Shown: one piece after another, positions 54,841 through 63,517 of the stretch | How positions within the stretch are numbered: the first letter of the stretch is position 1 | Layout: each line of letters starts with the position of its first letter | Assembly (NCBI GenBank): GCA_028284065.1 | Contig: JANQSJ010000011.1 | Span: forward strand, 434,001 to 498,000 | Direction of reading: 5' to 3' | Source of the DNA: Parvularculaceae bacterium | GTDB lineage: Bacteria > Pseudomonadota > Alphaproteobacteria > Caulobacterales > Parvularculaceae | DNA length: 64,000 nt | The notes under the pieces: model-generated | Told to the model about the DNA's origin: nothing | The model's input: only the letters and a program-made list of their open reading frames with translations | Database searches by the model: none | Position numbers and translations under genes: made by a program

Positions 54841-55575
54841 ATGACGCCAAGTTTTGTTGAAGGACCGAACGGCCGGATCGCCTATGAGCGGATCAACGGC
54901 GCTGGGCCCGGCGTTGTCTGGTTCGGCGGGTTTCGCTCCGATATGACTGGCTCGAAGGCGAGCCGCCTCGCCGACTGGGCCGGGCGGGAGGGCCGCGCCT
55001 ATCTTCGGTTCGATTACTCGGGGCATGGCGCGTCCGACGGCGAATTCGTCAAGGGCTGCATTTCCGAATGGCGGGACGACGCCCTCGCCGCGCTCGATGC
55101 GCTGACGCAAGGTCCGCAGATCTATGTGGGCTCCTCGATGGGCGCATGGATAGCGGCGCTGTGCGCCCGGGCCCGGCCGGGCGGCCTTCACGCCTTTGTC
55201 GGCATCGCGCCGGCGCCGGACTTCACCGAGGAGCTTATGCTGCCGACAATGCCAAAGGGTATGCGCCGCAGGATCGACGAAGACGGCCAGGCGGCGCTGC
55301 CTTCCGCCTATGATGAGCCGCCGACTATCATCACCCGCAAGCTGATCGAGGACGGGCGAAACAACCTTGTCCTGCGGGACGGAGTTCCCTTTGACGGACC
55401 GGTCAGACTGCTCCAGGGCATGGCGGACCCGGATGTCCCTTGGCGTCACGCGCCCCGCTTCGCCGAGGCGTTCGCCAGCACGGACGTTGAAGTTACGCTC
55501 ATCAAGGATGGCGACCATCGCCTCTCGCGAGACGAAGATCTCGACCGGTTAGAGCAGCTCTTGAGAGGCCTTTAG
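54841..55575 (+). CDS. Alpha/beta hydrolase (ABHD10-like)
   Basis: 244 residues. The nucleophile elbow is IYVGSSMGAWIAAL (Ser around residue 100). An oxyanion loop GGFRSDMTGSKA and FDYSGHGASDG come first. The acid is in LLQGMADPDVPW and the base His in LIKDGDHRLSRDED, completing the triad. It resembles the small cytosolic palmitoyl-protein/acyl thioesterase-like hydrolases found near infC in many alphaproteobacteria. The natural substrate is unknown. It ends 172 bases before the blaI start. Confidence 0.88.
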   Translation: MTPSFVEGPNGRIAYERINGAGPGVVWFGGFRSDMTGSKASRLADWAGREGRAYLRFDYSGHGASDGEFVKGCISEWRDDALAALDALTQGPQIYVGSSMGAWIAALCARARPGGLHAFVGIAPAPDFTEELMLPTMPKGMRRRIDEDGQAALPSAYDEPPTIITRKLIEDGRNNLVLRDGVPFDGPVRLLQGMADPDVPWRHAPRFAEAFASTDVEVTLIKDGDHRLSRDEDLDRLEQLLRGL

Positions 55576-55617: not shown

Positions 55618-55633
55618 TGCGACATCTGTCGCA
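55618..55633 (+). promoter_or_regulatory. Predicted BlaI operator in the blaI promoter
   Basis: The perfect palindrome TGCGACA-TC-TGTCGCA contains the GACA-N2-TGTC core expected for a BlaI/CopY-type repressor (known cores TACA-TGTA). It overlaps a possible -35 (TTGCGA, 55617) placed 17 bases before TAGAAC (55640), so binding would block RNA polymerase. The identical half-sites recur at 59218-59233. Confidence 0.72.
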
Positions 55634-55747
55634 TCACGATAGAACCTAATCCCAGGAACCCGCTATGAGGCATGAGGTTCGCTGGGACGCGCGAGCGAAC
55701 CCCGTGGCGGAATGCGGCCGATGGGCCGCACAAGGGAGAAGATGTCC

Positions 55748-56152
55748 ATGGTCGACGATTCATCCGTCCAGGGCGCGGCGAAGCCCGCCACGCAGCCGAC
55801 AAAGCCGGAGCTTGCGGTTCTCAAGCTGCTCTGGCGGCGGCGCGATCTGAGCGCGCGGCAGATTACCGAGGAGGTGGCGCCGCAGTTCAACTGGTCCTAT
55901 TCGACCATGCGCACGGTCCTTGAACGGATGTGCGAAAAAGGCCTCCTCACCAAGAAACCCGCTGGCGGCGTCAATGTTTATGCGGCCGGCGTCGGCAAGA
56001 TTGCGCTGCTCGGCGACATGATCCGCGATTTCTCCGATCGCGTGCTGGAGCTGGACGCCGCCCCCTCGGCGGTGATGTTCGCGGATTCAAAGCTCCTATC
56101 GGAGGACGAGCTTGCGGAGCTGGAAGAACGTCTGAGGGCGGAGGACGAGTAA
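55748..56152 (+). CDS. BlaI/MecI/CopY-family transcriptional repressor
   Basis: 134 residues from ATG 55748; AAGGGAG ends 9 bases before it (ATG 55742 is too close to the ribosome site). The winged helix (~20-90) reads ELAVLKLLWRRRDLSARQIT, FNWSYSTMRTVLERMCEKGL and the wing KKPAGGVNVYAA. The C-terminal helices (~95-134) should dimerise. BlaI-type proteins repress promoters until cleaved after a BlaR1-like M56 protease senses envelope damage. The next gene is such a protein and starts inside this gene's stop codon (TAATG), strongly supporting a repressor-sensor pair. Confidence 0.92.
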   Translation: MVDDSSVQGAAKPATQPTKPELAVLKLLWRRRDLSARQITEEVAPQFNWSYSTMRTVLERMCEKGLLTKKPAGGVNVYAAGVGKIALLGDMIRDFSDRVLELDAAPSAVMFADSKLLSEDELAELEERLRAEDE

Positions 56153-58992
56153 TGTCTTTTGATCTCTTCATGGACGAGCACCAGGTCCAGGCGCTCGTTA
56201 TTTGTCTTCTCGCGTCGCTCATCTGGGCGCCAATCGTCTTGTTGATCGCGCGCACGCTCGGCGAAGGCGCATCCATCCGCACAGCGCAGGCGATCTGGAT
56301 CGGGGCGCTCACCCTTAGCGTCGCCCCGGCCGCGCTCGCGCCGGGTCTTGCAGGCATCGGCGTATCTCTGCGCGCCGCGCCGCAGGAGATCGACGACCCG
56401 ACTGTAACCACAACATCCGTTGATCTGGATACGATATTTATTGAAACGACCGAAGCCGCCGAGGAACGCGTTGCGTTTGCGACGGCGACAACGCGTGCGG
56501 TCGCCAAAGACTATGAAGACGCGGCGCCGACTTCATTTGAAGTCAGGTCCGGTTCGGCCGCAATGCAGGAAGTCCCGCCCGGCATCGTCGCGACCCTCGG
56601 CTCCCCTGAAGGCGAGCCGAAAGCGGAGCGCCGCTTCGCAGTCCCGGAATGGCGATCCGGCGTCGATTTACTGGCCTCGCCGCAGGCGTTCAGCATCGCC
56701 GCAATACTCTACGGATACGGCGTTTTGCTCGCCGCGTTGATCTGGCTCAGCCGGAGCGTCGGCCTGCACTGGGTCGCGTCGACGGCCCGGCCGGTCCGCG
56801 ATCCCAAGATCCTCGCCGGCGTCGAGGCATGGCGCGCGCGCATCGGCGTGCGCGGGACGCCGCGACTGAGGCGCACGCCGCGCGTCTCCAGCGTCTGCGT
56901 GTTCGGCGTCTGGCGGCCGACCGTCCTTATACCTCACGATATTGAAACGCGGGTGTCGCAGGATGACGTCGTCATAATGTGCGCGCACGAATTGGCGCAT
57001 ATCCGCCGCCGCGACACCCAGCTCTTCTTCGCGACGACCCTCGTGCGCGCGCTCTTCTGGTTTAACCCGGCCGTCAAGGCGATCGCCGCGCATGTGGAGC
57101 AGGCGGCGGAGGAAGCCGCGGACGCACAAGTGCTGAGCCGCGGCGTCGACCGCAAGGCCTACGCCTCGTGCTTCATCGCCAGCCTTCGCTTCGCGGCGGA
57201 AAAAGCGGCGCGCCGCCCGGCGATGACGCCGACTTTCATCCCCGTCGACAGGCGCGGCCGGAGGCGGCGTCTCGACGCCATCCTGCATGAAAAGCACCGC
57301 AAGTCCGCGCCCATCGCGGCGCGCAGCCTGGCCGCGGGCGCGGCGCTCGCGATGGCCATTTGCGCCGTTGCGCAGGCGGGCTTCGCAGTCTCGCCGACCA
57401 GCATCGAAAACCGGCCCGCCTTCGTTGCGGACCTGCAGGAGCTTTTGACCCTGCCGAGCCCGGCTTCGCTAGCGTCGCCCAAGGTCGCTGAGGTAGACGT
57501 CGTCGCAGCGCCGGCCCCCGAACCGAGCCCTGCGCCGACGCCCGCCGCCGCGCCTGAGCCTGAGCCCGTCGCGGCGGTCAAGACGGCTCAGGGCGCCTGG
57601 GACACGCCGCAAACTTCTGACATCGAATTCATCGCCCCCGCCAAGGGCCGCATCAGCCTCGGCTTCGGCGCCGAAAGACCCTTCACGACGGGATATCACA
57701 AGGGCGTCGACATCGTCGCGCGCAAAGGGACCGCGGTCGTTGCATCCGGCGCCGGCATTGTGAGGATGACAGATGCAAAGGGTCGCTCCGCATACGGCAA
57801 GATGATCAAGATCGACCATGGCGAAGGCGTCTACACGAAATACGCGCACCTCAGCCGGATCGACGTAGAAACGGGGGACAAGGTCGCGGCCGGGCAGCTC
57901 ATCGCCGCGGTCGGCAATACAGGCCAGTCCACCGGCCCGCACCTCCATTTCGAAGTGTACCGCGACGGCCGCCCAGTCGATCCGATGGCGGCGCTTTCCG
58001 ACGCGGCAGCCGCGAAACTGGGATCCAAGCGAACGCGCGCGCCCAGCGCTCCACGCCTGAAAGCGGCGGCTCTTGATGGTTCCCGGACGGCGCGAGCCGC
58101 GCGCGCGCGCAAGCCCGTGCGCCTCGCCTTCTCGACGGCCAATCGCACGCCGGGGATCGCTAAGGCCGCAGGCGACGCCTTGTGGCTTGACGCCGCGGGC
58201 AAGGAAATTGCGGCGCGCCTTGAAGTCAGCCTGCTGCAGGACGCTGTCAACGCAGCTGACGCGCAGGATAATGCGGCCTCAGGCGACGTCCGCGCCCGCG
58301 GCGCTTTCGCGAAGATGGAGGCTGAGCTTGCCGACGCCCGCGCGCGACGGGCTAGCGCCAAAGCAAAGCGCAATGCGGAGACGAAGGCCGCGCAGGCGCG
58401 CGTCGAGTCCGCATCGGCGCAAAGGCGCGTGACCATTGAGCGGGATAGTTCGGCTGCGGAGGAGGCCCGACGCATCGCAGCTGAAGAACGCCGGCGCGCA
58501 GCCGAAGAGCGCGCCCGCGCCAGGGAGGAACGCGCACGCGAACGCGAAGCTGCTCGCGTCATCGCGGAAAAGTCCCGCGCTCGCGCCTGGGAAGAGGCCG
58601 AAGAAGCGAGGGCCCTCGCCGAAGCGCGCCGCCGCGACGCGCAGGCGCGCGCCGAGGAACACGCCGACAGGATCCGCGAGCAATTCGAAGAGCAGTTTTG
58701 CTGCGACGTCGGCGAAGACATTGAAGAGGTTATCCATTCGTCGATCGAAAGCGCGTTCGAAACCCTCGCCGATATCGAGGTCGAACTGAACGAGGTTGAT
58801 ATCTCGGGGCGCGCCGCAGAAGCATCACAACGCGCGCTTGAGACTGCTCGGGCGGCGCTCGCCGGCGCAGGACAGTCTGACGCGCTCGCCGCCGCCCGCG
58901 CCAAGATCGCCGACCAGGAAGCGGAAATTGCGCGCCTCAGAGCCGAACTGGCGACAGCGGCGCGCGCCGCGTCGAACGACCGCGACGAATAA
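56152..58992 (+). CDS. M56 (BlaR1-like) membrane protease fused to an M23 endopeptidase and coiled coil
   Basis: 946 residues. Membrane helices at ~10-32, ~45-65, ~180-199 and ~390-413 flank an M56 zinc protease domain with the HExxH motif in CAHELAHIRRRDTQ (His 279, 283) and EEAADAQVL downstream. A Pro/Ala-rich linker leads to an M23/LytM domain (~490-613) with its ligands His516 and Asp520 (HKGVDIV), His566 (YAHLS), and His597/His599 (GPHLHFEV). A long Ala/Arg/Glu coiled coil (~700-850), a CC pair near 850 and further helices follow. BlaR1 normally ends in a beta-lactam-binding domain; here a peptidoglycan-binding or -cutting module replaces it. It is co-translated with the BlaI repressor. 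Confidence 0.9.
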   Translation: MSFDLFMDEHQVQALVICLLASLIWAPIVLLIARTLGEGASIRTAQAIWIGALTLSVAPAALAPGLAGIGVSLRAAPQEIDDPTVTTTSVDLDTIFIETTEAAEERVAFATATTRAVAKDYEDAAPTSFEVRSGSAAMQEVPPGIVATLGSPEGEPKAERRFAVPEWRSGVDLLASPQAFSIAAILYGYGVLLAALIWLSRSVGLHWVASTARPVRDPKILAGVEAWRARIGVRGTPRLRRTPRVSSVCVFGVWRPTVLIPHDIETRVSQDDVVIMCAHELAHIRRRDTQLFFATTLVRALFWFNPAVKAIAAHVEQAAEEAADAQVLSRGVDRKAYASCFIASLRFAAEKAARRPAMTPTFIPVDRRGRRRRLDAILHEKHRKSAPIAARSLAAGAALAMAICAVAQAGFAVSPTSIENRPAFVADLQELLTLPSPASLASPKVAEVDVVAAPAPEPSPAPTPAAAPEPEPVAAVKTAQGAWDTPQTSDIEFIAPAKGRISLGFGAERPFTTGYHKGVDIVARKGTAVVASGAGIVRMTDAKGRSAYGKMIKIDHGEGVYTKYAHLSRIDVETGDKVAAGQLIAAVGNTGQSTGPHLHFEVYRDGRPVDPMAALSDAAAAKLGSKRTRAPSAPRLKAAALDGSRTARAARARKPVRLAFSTANRTPGIAKAAGDALWLDAAGKEIAARLEVSLLQDAVNAADAQDNAASGDVRARGAFAKMEAELADARARRASAKAKRNAETKAAQARVESASAQRRVTIERDSSAAEEARRIAAEERRRAAEERARAREERAREREAARVIAEKSRARAWEEAEEARALAEARRRDAQARAEEHADRIREQFEEQFCCDVGEDIEEVIHSSIESAFETLADIEVELNEVDISGRAAEASQRALETARAALAGAGQSDALAAARAKIADQEAEIARLRAELATAARAASNDRDE

Positions 58993-59217: not shown

Positions 59218-59233
59218 TGCGACACATGTCGCA
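59218..59233 (+). promoter_or_regulatory. Predicted BlaI operator upstream of the RND pump
   Basis: TGCGACA-CA-TGTCGCA has the same two 7-base half-sites and 2-base spacing as the palindrome before blaI. It ends 26 bases before the pump ATG, between any promoter and the ribosome site, so a bound repressor would block transcription. Confidence 0.7.
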
Positions 59234-59259: not shown

Positions 59260-62200
59260 ATGGGACTTACGCGACTGGCGCTGAAGAACCCCGCCGCGCT
59301 CGCGGTCATCCTCGCCGTCATTGCGCTCTTTGCGGCGACATCCGCCACGCGCCTGCCGGTGCAGCTTTTCCCAAGCATTGAGCGACCGGTCATCGGCGTT
59401 TGGACTGGCTGGCGCGCGGCCAGCCCGCGGGAAGTAGAATCCGAGATCATCGACCCCATCGAAAGGGAGCTTCGCGGCGCGCCCGGGCTCTCCTCTATGC
59501 AGTCCTGGTCTAACGTCGGCGGCGGGTTCATCCGGCTGGAATTCGCCCTGGGCACCGACATGACCGCGGCGTTCGGCGACATCTCTAGCCGTCTTCAACG
59601 CGTGCGCGGCCTGCCCGCGGACGCCGACCGCCCGCGCATCCAGGCCAATGGCGGGGGCGATGCGGGCGAGACGCTGATCTTTCTCTTCCTCCAGCGCCTG
59701 CCCGGAACGGAAGGCGATGGCTTCGCCCTTGCGCGTTTCGCCAATGAGCGGCTCGCCCCGGAGCTTGAGGCCATCGATGGCGTCGGCGGCGTCGACGTCA
59801 ATGGCGACTATGGCGAAGAGATTCTGAAAATAACCTTCGATCCGTTCCTGGCGGCGGAGCGCGGGATTTCGATCGACGATATTGCGACGACGGTTAATCA
59901 GTCGACCGATGTCACCGGCGGCTCGGTCGAGGTTGGGCGGCGCAACTATACGCTTCGCTTTGAAGGTCGTTTCGATGCCGGAGAAATTGAAAATACGGTG
60001 CTCGCTTGGCGCAACGGCGCGCCGGTGCGCCTCGGGGATATCGCCGTCGCCAGCATCTCGCCCGACAGTCAGGGCGGCGTCGTCTTCCAGAACGGAAATC
60101 CGGCGATTGGCATGCGCATTATTCGCGAGCCCGGCGCCAACACGCTCGCCGCGATTGATGCGCTAACCGTCAAGATTGAGGAGTTGAACGCCGGCCCCCT
60201 CGCCGACCTCGGCTACGCCGTGCACAAGAGTTTCGATCCATCCGTCTTCATCAAACGCGCAATCGGCCTCCTCACCGGGAACCTCGCGATCGGGGTCCTG
60301 CTCGCAGTCGGCGCGCTGTGGCTATTCCTGCGGCGCACGCGCGCGACGCTGCTGATCGCATCGGCGATCCCGATTTCGCTTACGGCCACGATCGTCGTGC
60401 TGTCTCTCGCCGGGCGAACAATAAACATTATCTCCCTCGCCGGAATGGCTTTCGCGACCGGCATGGTGCTCGATGCGGCGATCGTGGTGCTTGAGAACTT
60501 CGTGCGCCTGCGGGAGGGCGGCGCGAAGCCCGAAAAAGCCGCCGAAGAAGCGGTCGGCCAGGTTTTCGGCGCGCTCTTCGCGTCGACAGTGACGACGATC
60601 GCCGTCTTCCTGCCGGTCATCTTCTTCGAAGACGTCGAGGGCCAGTTGTTCGCGGACCTCGCCCTGACGATCGCCATCGCCGTCTGCTTCAGCCTTGTCG
60701 CCGCGGTCACGGCCCTGCCTGTCGGCGCGGCGACGTTTCTGCGCGCGAGCGCAAAAGCAGCCGCAGGCGACGGACGAGCCGGTTTCGCGGAGGGCCTCGC
60801 CGGTCTCATCCTGGGGCTGACGAACAGCCCCCGCGCCCGCCTCGCCTGGATCGCCGGTCTGACGGCTGCGCCAATCGCGCTCGGCGTCGCCCTGTGGCCG
60901 CAACTGAATTACCTGCCGCCCGTGAAGCGCGACGCCGTGGACGGATTTATTTCGTTCCCTTCAGGCGCGAGCGCCGACATGGTGCGGGAGGAATTCGCCG
61001 AAATCGTCGTCGAGCGGCTGCAGCCATTCATGGACGGCGAGCGCGAACCGTCATTGCGGAACTACTACCTCTATACCGGCCCCTGGGGCGGCAATATCGG
61101 CGTCCGCGCAAAGGATCAGTCGGACGTCGAGGAGTTGTCGCGCATTGTGAACGAAGAGATCCTCTCCGGCTTCCCCGACACCCGCGTCTTCGCCCGCCAG
61201 GGCGATCTGTTCGGTCAGTTCGGCGGCGATGCGTCCGTAAGCCTTGATCTGCAGGCCGATGATTACGACGCGCTCGGCGACGCTGTGCCGGACGTCATCG
61301 ACCTAATTGAGGACGCTCTTCCCGGCGCCGATGTCTGGCCGAACCCTGATCCGCAGACGGTAAGCCCTGAAATCCGCGTCATCCCCAACGATCGCCGCAT
61401 CGCGGAAGTCGGCCTCGACCGGGCGAGCGTCGCTCGCGCCGTCAGGACGCTCGGCGACGGGCTCTGGCTCGGCGAATTCTTCCATGAAGGCGGCCGGCTC
61501 GACGTCTTCCTGCAAGCGCGGGAATGGACGGAACCGGAGTATCTCTCGCGAACACCGCTTGCGACGCCCAATGGCGCCGTCGTCTCGCTCGGAGAGGTCG
61601 CGACGATCGAGCGGAGCGTCGGTCCGCAGCAAATTCGCCGCCAGGAAGGGCGCCGCACGATTTCCCTAGGCGTCAACCCGCCGGACGGCATGCCGTTGAG
61701 CGAAGTCGTCGCGGCGATCCGCGAGGGCGCGGAGGCGGACATCTACGCCGCGCTGCCGGAAGGCGCGAGCATCGCCTACGCCGGCGAGGCCGATGCGCTG
61801 AAGCGCGCGGTGCGCAACCTCGGCGGCAATTTCCTGCTGGCGATCGCCATTTTGTTCCTGATCCTCGCAGCGCTCTTCAAGTCGATGCGCGACGCCGCCT
61901 ATGTCGTGATCGCATTGCCCATGGCGGCGGTCGGCGGCGTTGCGGCGTTGCGCCTGATGAACCTCGTCAGCCCGACCCCGCTCGATCTTCTCGGCATGAT
62001 CGGCTTCATTATCCTTCTCGGCCTTGTCGTGAACAACGCCATCCTTCTTGTCGCGCAAACGCGCGCATCGGAAAGGGCCGGCCTTGACCGCCGCGCAGCG
62101 GTGCGCTCTGCGCTGACGCTTCGCATTCGTCCAATTTTCATGTCGACGACGACGTCGCTCATGGGCATGGCGCCGCTGGTCCTGTCGCCTGGCGCCGGGA

Positions 62201-62352
62201 GCATGATCTATCGCGGCCTCGCCACGGTGATCGTCGGCGGCATGGCGATCTCGACCCTCTTTACCCTGATTTTGTTGCCGGCGCTGTTGCAGCTCGGCGT
62301 CGCCCGCGAACGGGACGCGCACGTCGCGGCAGGCCAACCGGCCGCCGCCTGA
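59260..62352 (+). CDS. RND-superfamily efflux pump (AcrB/HAE-like)
   Basis: 1030 residues from ATG 59260 (GGAG 7 bases upstream). Twelve membrane helices with two large periplasmic loops. N-terminal LTRLALKNPAALAVILAVIA and LPVQLFPSIERPVIGVWTGW are typical. The fourth-helix proton-relay region reads GMVLDAAIVVLENFVRLREG, with one acidic residue where AcrB has Asp-Asp, and the tenth-helix region is LLGLVVNNAILLVAQTR. It exports small molecules using the proton gradient and needs an adaptor and an outer-membrane channel. The adaptor gene follows 16 bases later; no TolC-like gene is present. A BlaI-like operator lies just upstream. Confidence 0.94.
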   Translation: MGLTRLALKNPAALAVILAVIALFAATSATRLPVQLFPSIERPVIGVWTGWRAASPREVESEIIDPIERELRGAPGLSSMQSWSNVGGGFIRLEFALGTDMTAAFGDISSRLQRVRGLPADADRPRIQANGGGDAGETLIFLFLQRLPGTEGDGFALARFANERLAPELEAIDGVGGVDVNGDYGEEILKITFDPFLAAERGISIDDIATTVNQSTDVTGGSVEVGRRNYTLRFEGRFDAGEIENTVLAWRNGAPVRLGDIAVASISPDSQGGVVFQNGNPAIGMRIIREPGANTLAAIDALTVKIEELNAGPLADLGYAVHKSFDPSVFIKRAIGLLTGNLAIGVLLAVGALWLFLRRTRATLLIASAIPISLTATIVVLSLAGRTINIISLAGMAFATGMVLDAAIVVLENFVRLREGGAKPEKAAEEAVGQVFGALFASTVTTIAVFLPVIFFEDVEGQLFADLALTIAIAVCFSLVAAVTALPVGAATFLRASAKAAAGDGRAGFAEGLAGLILGLTNSPRARLAWIAGLTAAPIALGVALWPQLNYLPPVKRDAVDGFISFPSGASADMVREEFAEIVVERLQPFMDGEREPSLRNYYLYTGPWGGNIGVRAKDQSDVEELSRIVNEEILSGFPDTRVFARQGDLFGQFGGDASVSLDLQADDYDALGDAVPDVIDLIEDALPGADVWPNPDPQTVSPEIRVIPNDRRIAEVGLDRASVARAVRTLGDGLWLGEFFHEGGRLDVFLQAREWTEPEYLSRTPLATPNGAVVSLGEVATIERSVGPQQIRRQEGRRTISLGVNPPDGMPLSEVVAAIREGAEADIYAALPEGASIAYAGEADALKRAVRNLGGNFLLAIAILFLILAALFKSMRDAAYVVIALPMAAVGGVAALRLMNLVSPTPLDLLGMIGFIILLGLVVNNAILLVAQTRASERAGLDRRAAVRSALTLRIRPIFMSTTTSLMGMAPLVLSPGAGSMIYRGLATVIVGGMAISTLFTLILLPALLQLGVARERDAHVAAGQPAAA

Positions 62353-62368: not shown

Positions 62369-63517
62369 ATGGCTGATCGCGCATCGCCAAGGCCAAAGCC
62401 GGGCCGCCGCCGTCGCGCGCTCTTCGCCGCCGCGGCGGTCGCCGCCGCCGGAGCCGGGTTCGTCGGCGTCGCTGCCTTTCTTCAGAGCGACGGCCCCTCG
62501 GCGCTCGCTGCGGAGGAGCCGGACGAGGCCGCCGGGCCGCCCCCTGCGCCGGTCGTCGTCGCCGAGGCGGTGGAGAGGATGCTCGCGCCCGTCGCCGAAG
62601 CGCCCGGCTCGGCGGTCAGCGTCTCGGACAGCGTCGTCGCAGCGGCGACGACGGGGAAAGTCATTTGGGTCGCCGAGATCGGCGATGAAATTGATGCGGG
62701 CGGGGTAATAGCGCGGCTTGATCCCGCCGACGCGGAGCTGTCGCTGCGAGACGCCCGTGCGGAGGTCAAGCGTCTTAAGGCGCGTGCGGATTATCTCGAA
62801 CGCCTCGTGGCGCGCTATGAGGGCCTCGGCGAGGACTCAGGCGAATCTGAGGCGACTCTCGACGAGGTTCGCGCAAGTTATGGCGAAGCGCTAGGCGCGC
62901 TGGAACGCGGCCGCGTCACGGTTCGGCGGGCCGAAGTCGATCTTGAACGCACCGATATTAAGGCGCCGTTTGCGGGCCGCGTGGCGACGCGGGAAATCGA
63001 AGTCGGCGAATTCGCCACCATTGGCGCGCCGATCGCGCGCTTCGTCGACACCTCTCGCCTTGAGGTCAGCGCCCGCGCGCCGGCTGACATGCTGGCCAAT
63101 GTCGCCGCAGGCGACGAGATCGCGGTGCGCTACCGCGCCGAAGAGACGGCCGCGCGGGTGCGCGCCGTGGTGCCGGTGGGCGACGAAGTCACGCGCACCC
63201 TCGAAATCCGCGTGAGCCTCGCCGAGACCGACTGGCCGATCGGCGCGCCCGTGCGCGTGCAGTTGCCCTCCGCCGCCCCGCGCCGCGCCGTCGCCGCGCC
63301 GCGCGATGCGCTTGTTCTGCGGTCTGACGGCGCGTTTCTGTTCAAGCTCAACGCCGACGACACGGCTGTGCGCGTGCCTGTCACGCTCGGCGCGGCCGAA
63401 GGCGACCTGATCGAAGTCATCGGCGAGGTGCGCGCCGGCGAACGCATCGTGGTGCGCGGCGCGGAACGCCTTCGCGACGGCCAGAACGTCACCGTCAAGG
63501 AGACGCCGACGTCCTGA
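62369..63517 (+). CDS. RND efflux periplasmic adaptor
   Basis: 382 residues from ATG 62369 with CGGAGGAG upstream. Basic N-terminus and membrane anchor (RRRRALFAAAAVAAAGAGFV), then the lipoyl half GKVIWVAEIGDEIDAGGVIA, a short coiled-coil hairpin (~130-185), the second half TDIKAPFAGRVATREIEVGE, a beta-barrel and a membrane-proximal domain. It links the RND pump encoded just before it to an outer-membrane channel. Pump-before-adaptor order is opposite to the acrAB order. There is no lipobox; the anchor is probably a membrane helix. Confidence 0.92.
   Translation: MADRASPRPKPGRRRRALFAAAAVAAAGAGFVGVAAFLQSDGPSALAAEEPDEAAGPPPAPVVVAEAVERMLAPVAEAPGSAVSVSDSVVAAATTGKVIWVAEIGDEIDAGGVIARLDPADAELSLRDARAEVKRLKARADYLERLVARYEGLGEDSGESEATLDEVRASYGEALGALERGRVTVRRAEVDLERTDIKAPFAGRVATREIEVGEFATIGAPIARFVDTSRLEVSARAPADMLANVAAGDEIAVRYRAEETAARVRAVVPVGDEVTRTLEIRVSLAETDWPIGAPVRVQLPSAAPRRAVAAPRDALVLRSDGAFLFKLNADDTAVRVPVTLGAAEGDLIEVIGEVRAGERIVVRGAERLRDGQNVTVKETPTS

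Follow-up and report, generated by a model that had tools for sequence, protein, structure and literature searches.

The closest described systems are those of BlaR1/MecR1 with BlaI/MecI in Staphylococcus aureus and Bacillus licheniformis, which share with the locus described here the key residues of an M56 protease, the Phe of the autocleavage site, a plan of four transmembrane (TM) helices, predicted here, a partner blaI gene whose product has a Phe at P1′ of its cleavage site, and operators of the ACANNTGT type. However, the present system has an M23 domain and a coiled coil and is without a penicillin-binding domain, and its likely target is an RND pump rather than a β-lactamase or PBP2a. 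The CopY/CopR system resembles it in an operator core, KACANNTGTMR, that matches the palindromes in the window, the whole 64,000-nucleotide stretch of DNA (PMC7253601), but the repressor in the window adjoins an M56 protease.

Two groups of M23 proteins are also relevant. The M23 endopeptidases Csd3/Pgp3, ShyA, and MepM are the best fold matches of a model of the whole window protein, which has the same complete set of Hx3D, His, and HxH motifs; it differs from them in that its M23 domain is fused behind a membrane protease and that the catalytic His is a Gln in many of its relatives. The degenerate LytM factors EnvC, NlpD, and Csd2 retain the M23 fold, with loss of catalysis, as is expected of part of the fusion family, and EnvC likewise has a coiled coil. 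In contrast to these factors, the fusions usually keep the zinc residues, only the catalytic His being changed, and always to Gln, and they are probably coupled to BlaI signaling and not known to act on amidases. The window protein has lost none of the zinc or catalytic residues whose loss marks degenerate LytM factors; 31 of its relatives are without the catalytic His. A review places M56 among the other catalytic domains that accompany M23 in less than 1% of M23 proteins and have not been shown to take part in peptidoglycan cleavage (PMC9662197), and in the open literature we found no paper that describes M56-M23 fusions or BlaI with RND pumps. Its domains, partner, residues, operators, and conservation can be seen at the level of sequence. 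We regard the locus as a genuine variant of BlaR1/BlaI signaling that is conserved and has been little described.

The fusion protein and its protease half

The fusion gene occupies positions 56,152 to 58,992 of the window, on the forward strand like all the window's genes and protein features given below, as a stop-free frame whose translation has 946 residues and whose start shares one base with the stop codon of blaI. Pfam M56 matches residues 187–348 (E = 1.4e-25, 90.5 bits, cut-off 31) and Pfam M23 matches residues 515–611 (positions 57,694 to 57,984; E = 1.8e-33, 115 bits, cut-off 28.7), but no transpeptidase or penicillin-binding family of Pfam matches the 946-residue protein, and the NCBIfam model blaR1_generic scores 68 bits, below its cut-off of 400. 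The HELAH zinc site of the M56 half is at residues 279–283 (56,986 to 57,000), and the catalytic set of the M23 half is complete, consisting of H516 and D520 in the HKGVD motif (residues 516–520), H566 in YAH (57,847 to 57,849), which is at the position of His260 in LytM, and H597 and H599 in HLH (residues 597–599). The C-terminal region (residues 670–945; 58,159 to 58,986) is predicted by AlphaFold to contain helices at residues ∼670–704, 711–846, 858–904, and 909–945, which make a long coiled coil plausible. The earlier note had described a single protein that combines an M56 protease with an intact M23 site and a coiled coil, the penicillin sensor being replaced, and the frame, domain matches, residues, and modeled helices confirm this description. 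Frames with these same two domains are present in dozens of species-level genomes, which excludes the fusion as a chance artefact.

No Pfam family matches the C-terminal region of the window protein. The sole match to a known sensor domain came from the same part of a relative with a decayed M23 domain (L041), a weak score against Metal_resist (23.5 bits, cut-off 29.2), and the assignment of the region to such a domain was rejected. A vicinal pair of cysteines at residues 850–851 (58,699 to 58,704) is shared with only one further protein found, from the same genus (L035); all other fusions lack it.

In the M56 half, residues H279, E280, H283, D288, E320, D324, Y337, and R373 are invariant in all 72 aligned proteins and pair by spacing with H201, E202, H205, D210, E242, D246, Y261, and the Arg293/294 region of BlaR1, and F362, at the position of the BlaR1 autocleavage residue F284, is Phe in 69 of the 72 (numbering and roles of the BlaR1 residues are from PMC9834060). 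With a model of residues 1–421 (pTM 0.74), the five best PDB matches are all BlaR1 (E = 1.4e-5 to 5.2e-4, probability 1.00); the TM-scores are modest, 0.35–0.38 by query, and BlaR1 is domain-swapped. A profile comparison with the BlaR1 structure 8exp gives E = 2.9e-5. The M56 half fits a BlaR1-type protease in both sequence and modeled fold, and the invariant residues, the structure matches, and the adjoining blaI gene support the earlier proposal of a BlaR1-like protease paired with BlaI. The same genome encodes a second M56-like protein in a 331-residue frame, with a sub-threshold score of 23.9 bits (L002, G000 C18:62238-62522).

The topology is a prediction from hydropathy and charge. Four TM helices are predicted, at residues 14–32 (56,191 to 56,247), 53–71 (56,308 to 56,364), 179–197 (56,686 to 56,742), and 395–413 (57,334 to 57,390), the first three of which coincide with helices 9–37, 42–69, and 176–211 of the model; the N terminus would be outside and the M23 domain and coiled coil on the periplasmic side. 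This predicted plan is the same as that reported for BlaR1 (PMC9834060), and it would place the M23 domain outside the cytosol.

Gene cluster, relatives, and proposed operators

The cluster in the window begins with an α/β hydrolase gene (54,841 to 55,575; Pfam Hydrolase_4, 51.6 bits), a conserved first member that adjoins blaI in the loci of genera g1, g2, and g7. It is followed by the blaI-type repressor gene (55,742 to 56,152; Penicillinase_R, 75.3 bits), whose frame is open from 55,712 with a likely start at 55,742, by the fusion gene, and by genes for an AcrB-type RND efflux permease (59,260 to 62,352; ACR_tran, 590 bits) and an RND periplasmic adaptor (62,369 to 63,517; TIGR01730, 175 bits, over the cut-off). 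The CopY_TcrY model scores only 51 bits with the repressor, against a cut-off of 122. In an alignment that includes the MecI and BlaI structures, the P1′ Phe of the S. aureus BlaI cleavage site is kept in 70 of 74 partner BlaI proteins.

More than 70 related loci, from four families of a single bacterial order (probably an alphaproteobacterial one such as Caulobacterales), were identified, all directly behind blaI; in each locus scored, blaI immediately precedes the M56 gene and usually overlaps it. Within the family itself, a set of 62 genomes gave fusions in g1, g2, and g7; most of these loci have the hydrolase gene first and then blaI, the fusion, the permease, and the adaptor, and 25 loci carry the permease downstream of the fusion. 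Widening the survey to 298 genomes of the order yielded mostly shorter fusions of ∼440–650 residues, with a few of ∼820, in families f1, f2, f4, and f5. These short types are also right behind blaI, in varied surroundings without a pump, and because no pump adjoins them their output, judged by gene order, differs from pump control. Samples of 337 and 289 genomes from the class, with few candidates scored per genome, contained no fusion outside the order, which limits its range to one order without proving it; no plasmid record had a match with 80% query coverage, and a search of genome contigs for close relatives gave standalone M23 matches only.

Two variants of the domain arrangement should be noted. 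In two loci of genus g3 (L123 and L126), blaI is followed by an M56-coiled-coil protein without M23 and then by a second M56 protein with an intact M23 domain, the two periplasmic modules being split onto separate proteins; the first of the tandem proteins in L126 has a lipobox-like LAGC after its last helix. In genus g10 of family f2, L115 and L113 encode triple fusions of M56, M23, and a TonB C-terminal domain (the TonB_C score is 30 bits for L115, which exceeds the cut-off, and 22.5 bits for L113, just under it).

The proposed BlaI operator of the blaI operon is a perfect 16-bp palindrome, TGCGACA-TC-TGTCGCA (55,618 to 55,633), and that of the RND operon is the perfect palindrome TGCGACA-CA-TGTCGCA (59,218 to 59,233), which ends 26 bases before the start codon of the permease. 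The window contains two ACANNTGT sites as compared with 3.3 expected, so that their count by itself does not exceed chance. Each of the two, however, is part of a longer perfect palindrome, TGCGACANNTGTCGCA, which has 14 fixed letters and only these two exact copies in the 3.74-Mb genome. In a second member of the genus (G048), TGCGACANNTGTCGCA likewise occurs exactly twice, both times within the same cluster. Upstream of blaI, ACANNTGT is present in 64 of 74 loci versus 4.45 expected from shuffles. BlaI, MecI, and CopY are known to have operators of the TACA/TGTA type, and the presence of two operators in one system has precedent (PMC7253601); a repressor with a Penicillinase_R domain and candidate operators of this type are both present in the window. 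A sigma-70 scan at the two palindromes gave no promoter match.

Of the 25 loci with RND genes downstream, only 6, from g1, g2, and a single g7 genome, have a separate pump operator, which weighs against control of the pump by its own site as a general rule. Most g7 loci lack one, and there the pump would have to be transcribed by read-through from the blaI promoter, with a gap of ∼110–230 bp. From gene order and candidate operators, the RND pump is likely to be the target that the BlaI-type repressor controls; this target and the two operators go beyond what the earlier note saw.

One-mismatch sites in this genome and its relatives were considered as marking further members of the regulon and were rejected, one group lying inside an ArsC-like coding motif and reflecting chance. 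One such site, TGCTACATCTGTCGCA (L173, G000 C8:398502-398517), is just before the gene for a secreted HEAAH (HExxH) protein, a candidate third member, and in another genome the operator-like TGCTACATATGTCGCA (L199, G039 C5:389973-389988) is ∼115 bases before a TonB-like gene, which is a candidate only.

The catalytic histidine of the M23 domain

Of 72 fusion-family proteins, 67 retain H516 and D520, and the two HxH positions are retained by 67 and 68, but the catalytic His position is divided: the 67 fused M23 domains with aligned H...D zinc residues have His in 36 cases, Gln in 31, and nothing else. By comparison, M23 domains that stand alone in these genomes have His at this position in 17 of 17 and Gln in none (these controls, from among the best-scoring copies, represent eight of the genomes, and each has an HxGxD site and could be read at the position; two more were unreadable). 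The difference has a Fisher p of 1.5e-4 in a test that treats related proteins as independent. A tree from the M56 columns requires at least four changes between His and Gln, of which three follow from branches with good support, and the M23 tree, which is poorly resolved, also requires four; their direction is not fixed by the tree. The His at the LytM His260 position is thought to help activate water (PMC9662197), and because of this role the Gln form is expected to be unable to cut.

In three loci the M23 domain has been altered further, being absent in L040, decayed in L041, and fully degenerate in L127, with the M56 site intact in all three, and L040 and L041 retain BlaI and the blaI operator. 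The frequency of Gln, together with loss or decay of M23 beside an intact M56 site, indicates that M23 catalysis is not generally needed; across the aligned sequences, the M56 protease is the constant part and M23 cleavage the dispensable part. The loss of the catalytic residue in so many relatives suggests that the fused M23 domain often senses rather than cuts.

These observations bear on the suggestion of the earlier note that the protein is both sensor and hydrolase. In such a scheme, peptidoglycan cutting by M23 would be part of signaling, for example through fragments that reach BlaI. The window protein, with all catalytic residues present, may be capable of hydrolysis, the catalytic His is retained in 36 of the 67 fused domains, and in a published model for B. 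licheniformis a peptidoglycan dipeptide binds BlaI/MecI (PMC3305447); however, cutting is unexpected in the Gln-type proteins and in L040 and L041, which have kept M56, BlaI, and the operator. The claim of a dual function can hold only for part of the fusion family and lacks support as a general rule, and we consider it rather unlikely that cutting is a component of the signal.

Proposed signaling by the fusion

The reading that we prefer, and to which we give somewhat better than even chances, is a BlaR1-type switch in which an envelope signal at the M23 domain and coiled coil leads M56 to cut BlaI and so turns on the operon and the RND pump. A periplasmic signal, likely related to peptidoglycan, would alter the M23/coiled-coil part, and the cytoplasm-facing M56 domain would then cleave the neighboring BlaI, freeing both operators so that transcription of blaI, the fusion, and the adjacent RND pump would rise. 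The M23 domain would be mainly an input module that binds peptidoglycan or a muropeptide, with the window copy perhaps still an endopeptidase. We infer the ligand, BlaI cleavage, and pump induction; the steps from signal to BlaI cleavage are probable from what is known of the BlaR1 family, and those of transcription are probable from the operators. A stronger version, which we regard as doubtful, is that M23 has repeatedly been turned, by change of His to Gln, into a zinc-keeping, non-cutting peptidoglycan receptor that drives BlaI removal, in some lineages from an efflux-pump operon.

Alternatively, the coiled coil might be the real sensor or a contact with the pump and the M23 domain merely a cell-wall tether or adaptor. 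The long-type clade always retains M56 and the coiled coil, even where M23 is lost (L040) or decayed (L041), and in L123 and L126 one of the tandem M56 proteins has a coiled coil without M23, but the short types of the other families, with an M23 domain and without a coiled coil, are still paired with blaI, and we think this explanation quite unlikely.

TM4 runs into a motif, AQAxFAVxP (residues 407–415), that resembles a signal-peptidase site and is nearly invariant in the long type, with A405, Q408, A409, V413, and P415 invariant in 29 long-type relatives. BlaR1 itself is a substrate of the S. aureus signal peptidase SpsB, which cleaves it behind the final helix (PMC9834060), and the conserved motif, with the lipobox-like LAGC at the same place in L126, suggests that the periplasmic part may be released in a similar way. 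That TM4 is in effect a cleavable signal and the fusion two proteins, with the M23-coiled-coil part freed, is nevertheless very unlikely, as conservation of the motif drops in the short types and the cut in BlaR1 is proposed to serve turnover.

Since a repressor, operators, and a likely target accompany the fusion here, the question of what it senses can be put to the test. If the BlaR1-type switch is correct, signaling of this kind would couple the state of the envelope to gene expression more broadly, beyond β-lactams and, in these bacteria, to an efflux pump, and if the M23 domain is a receptor, a single protein would directly link the state of the cell wall to RND efflux.
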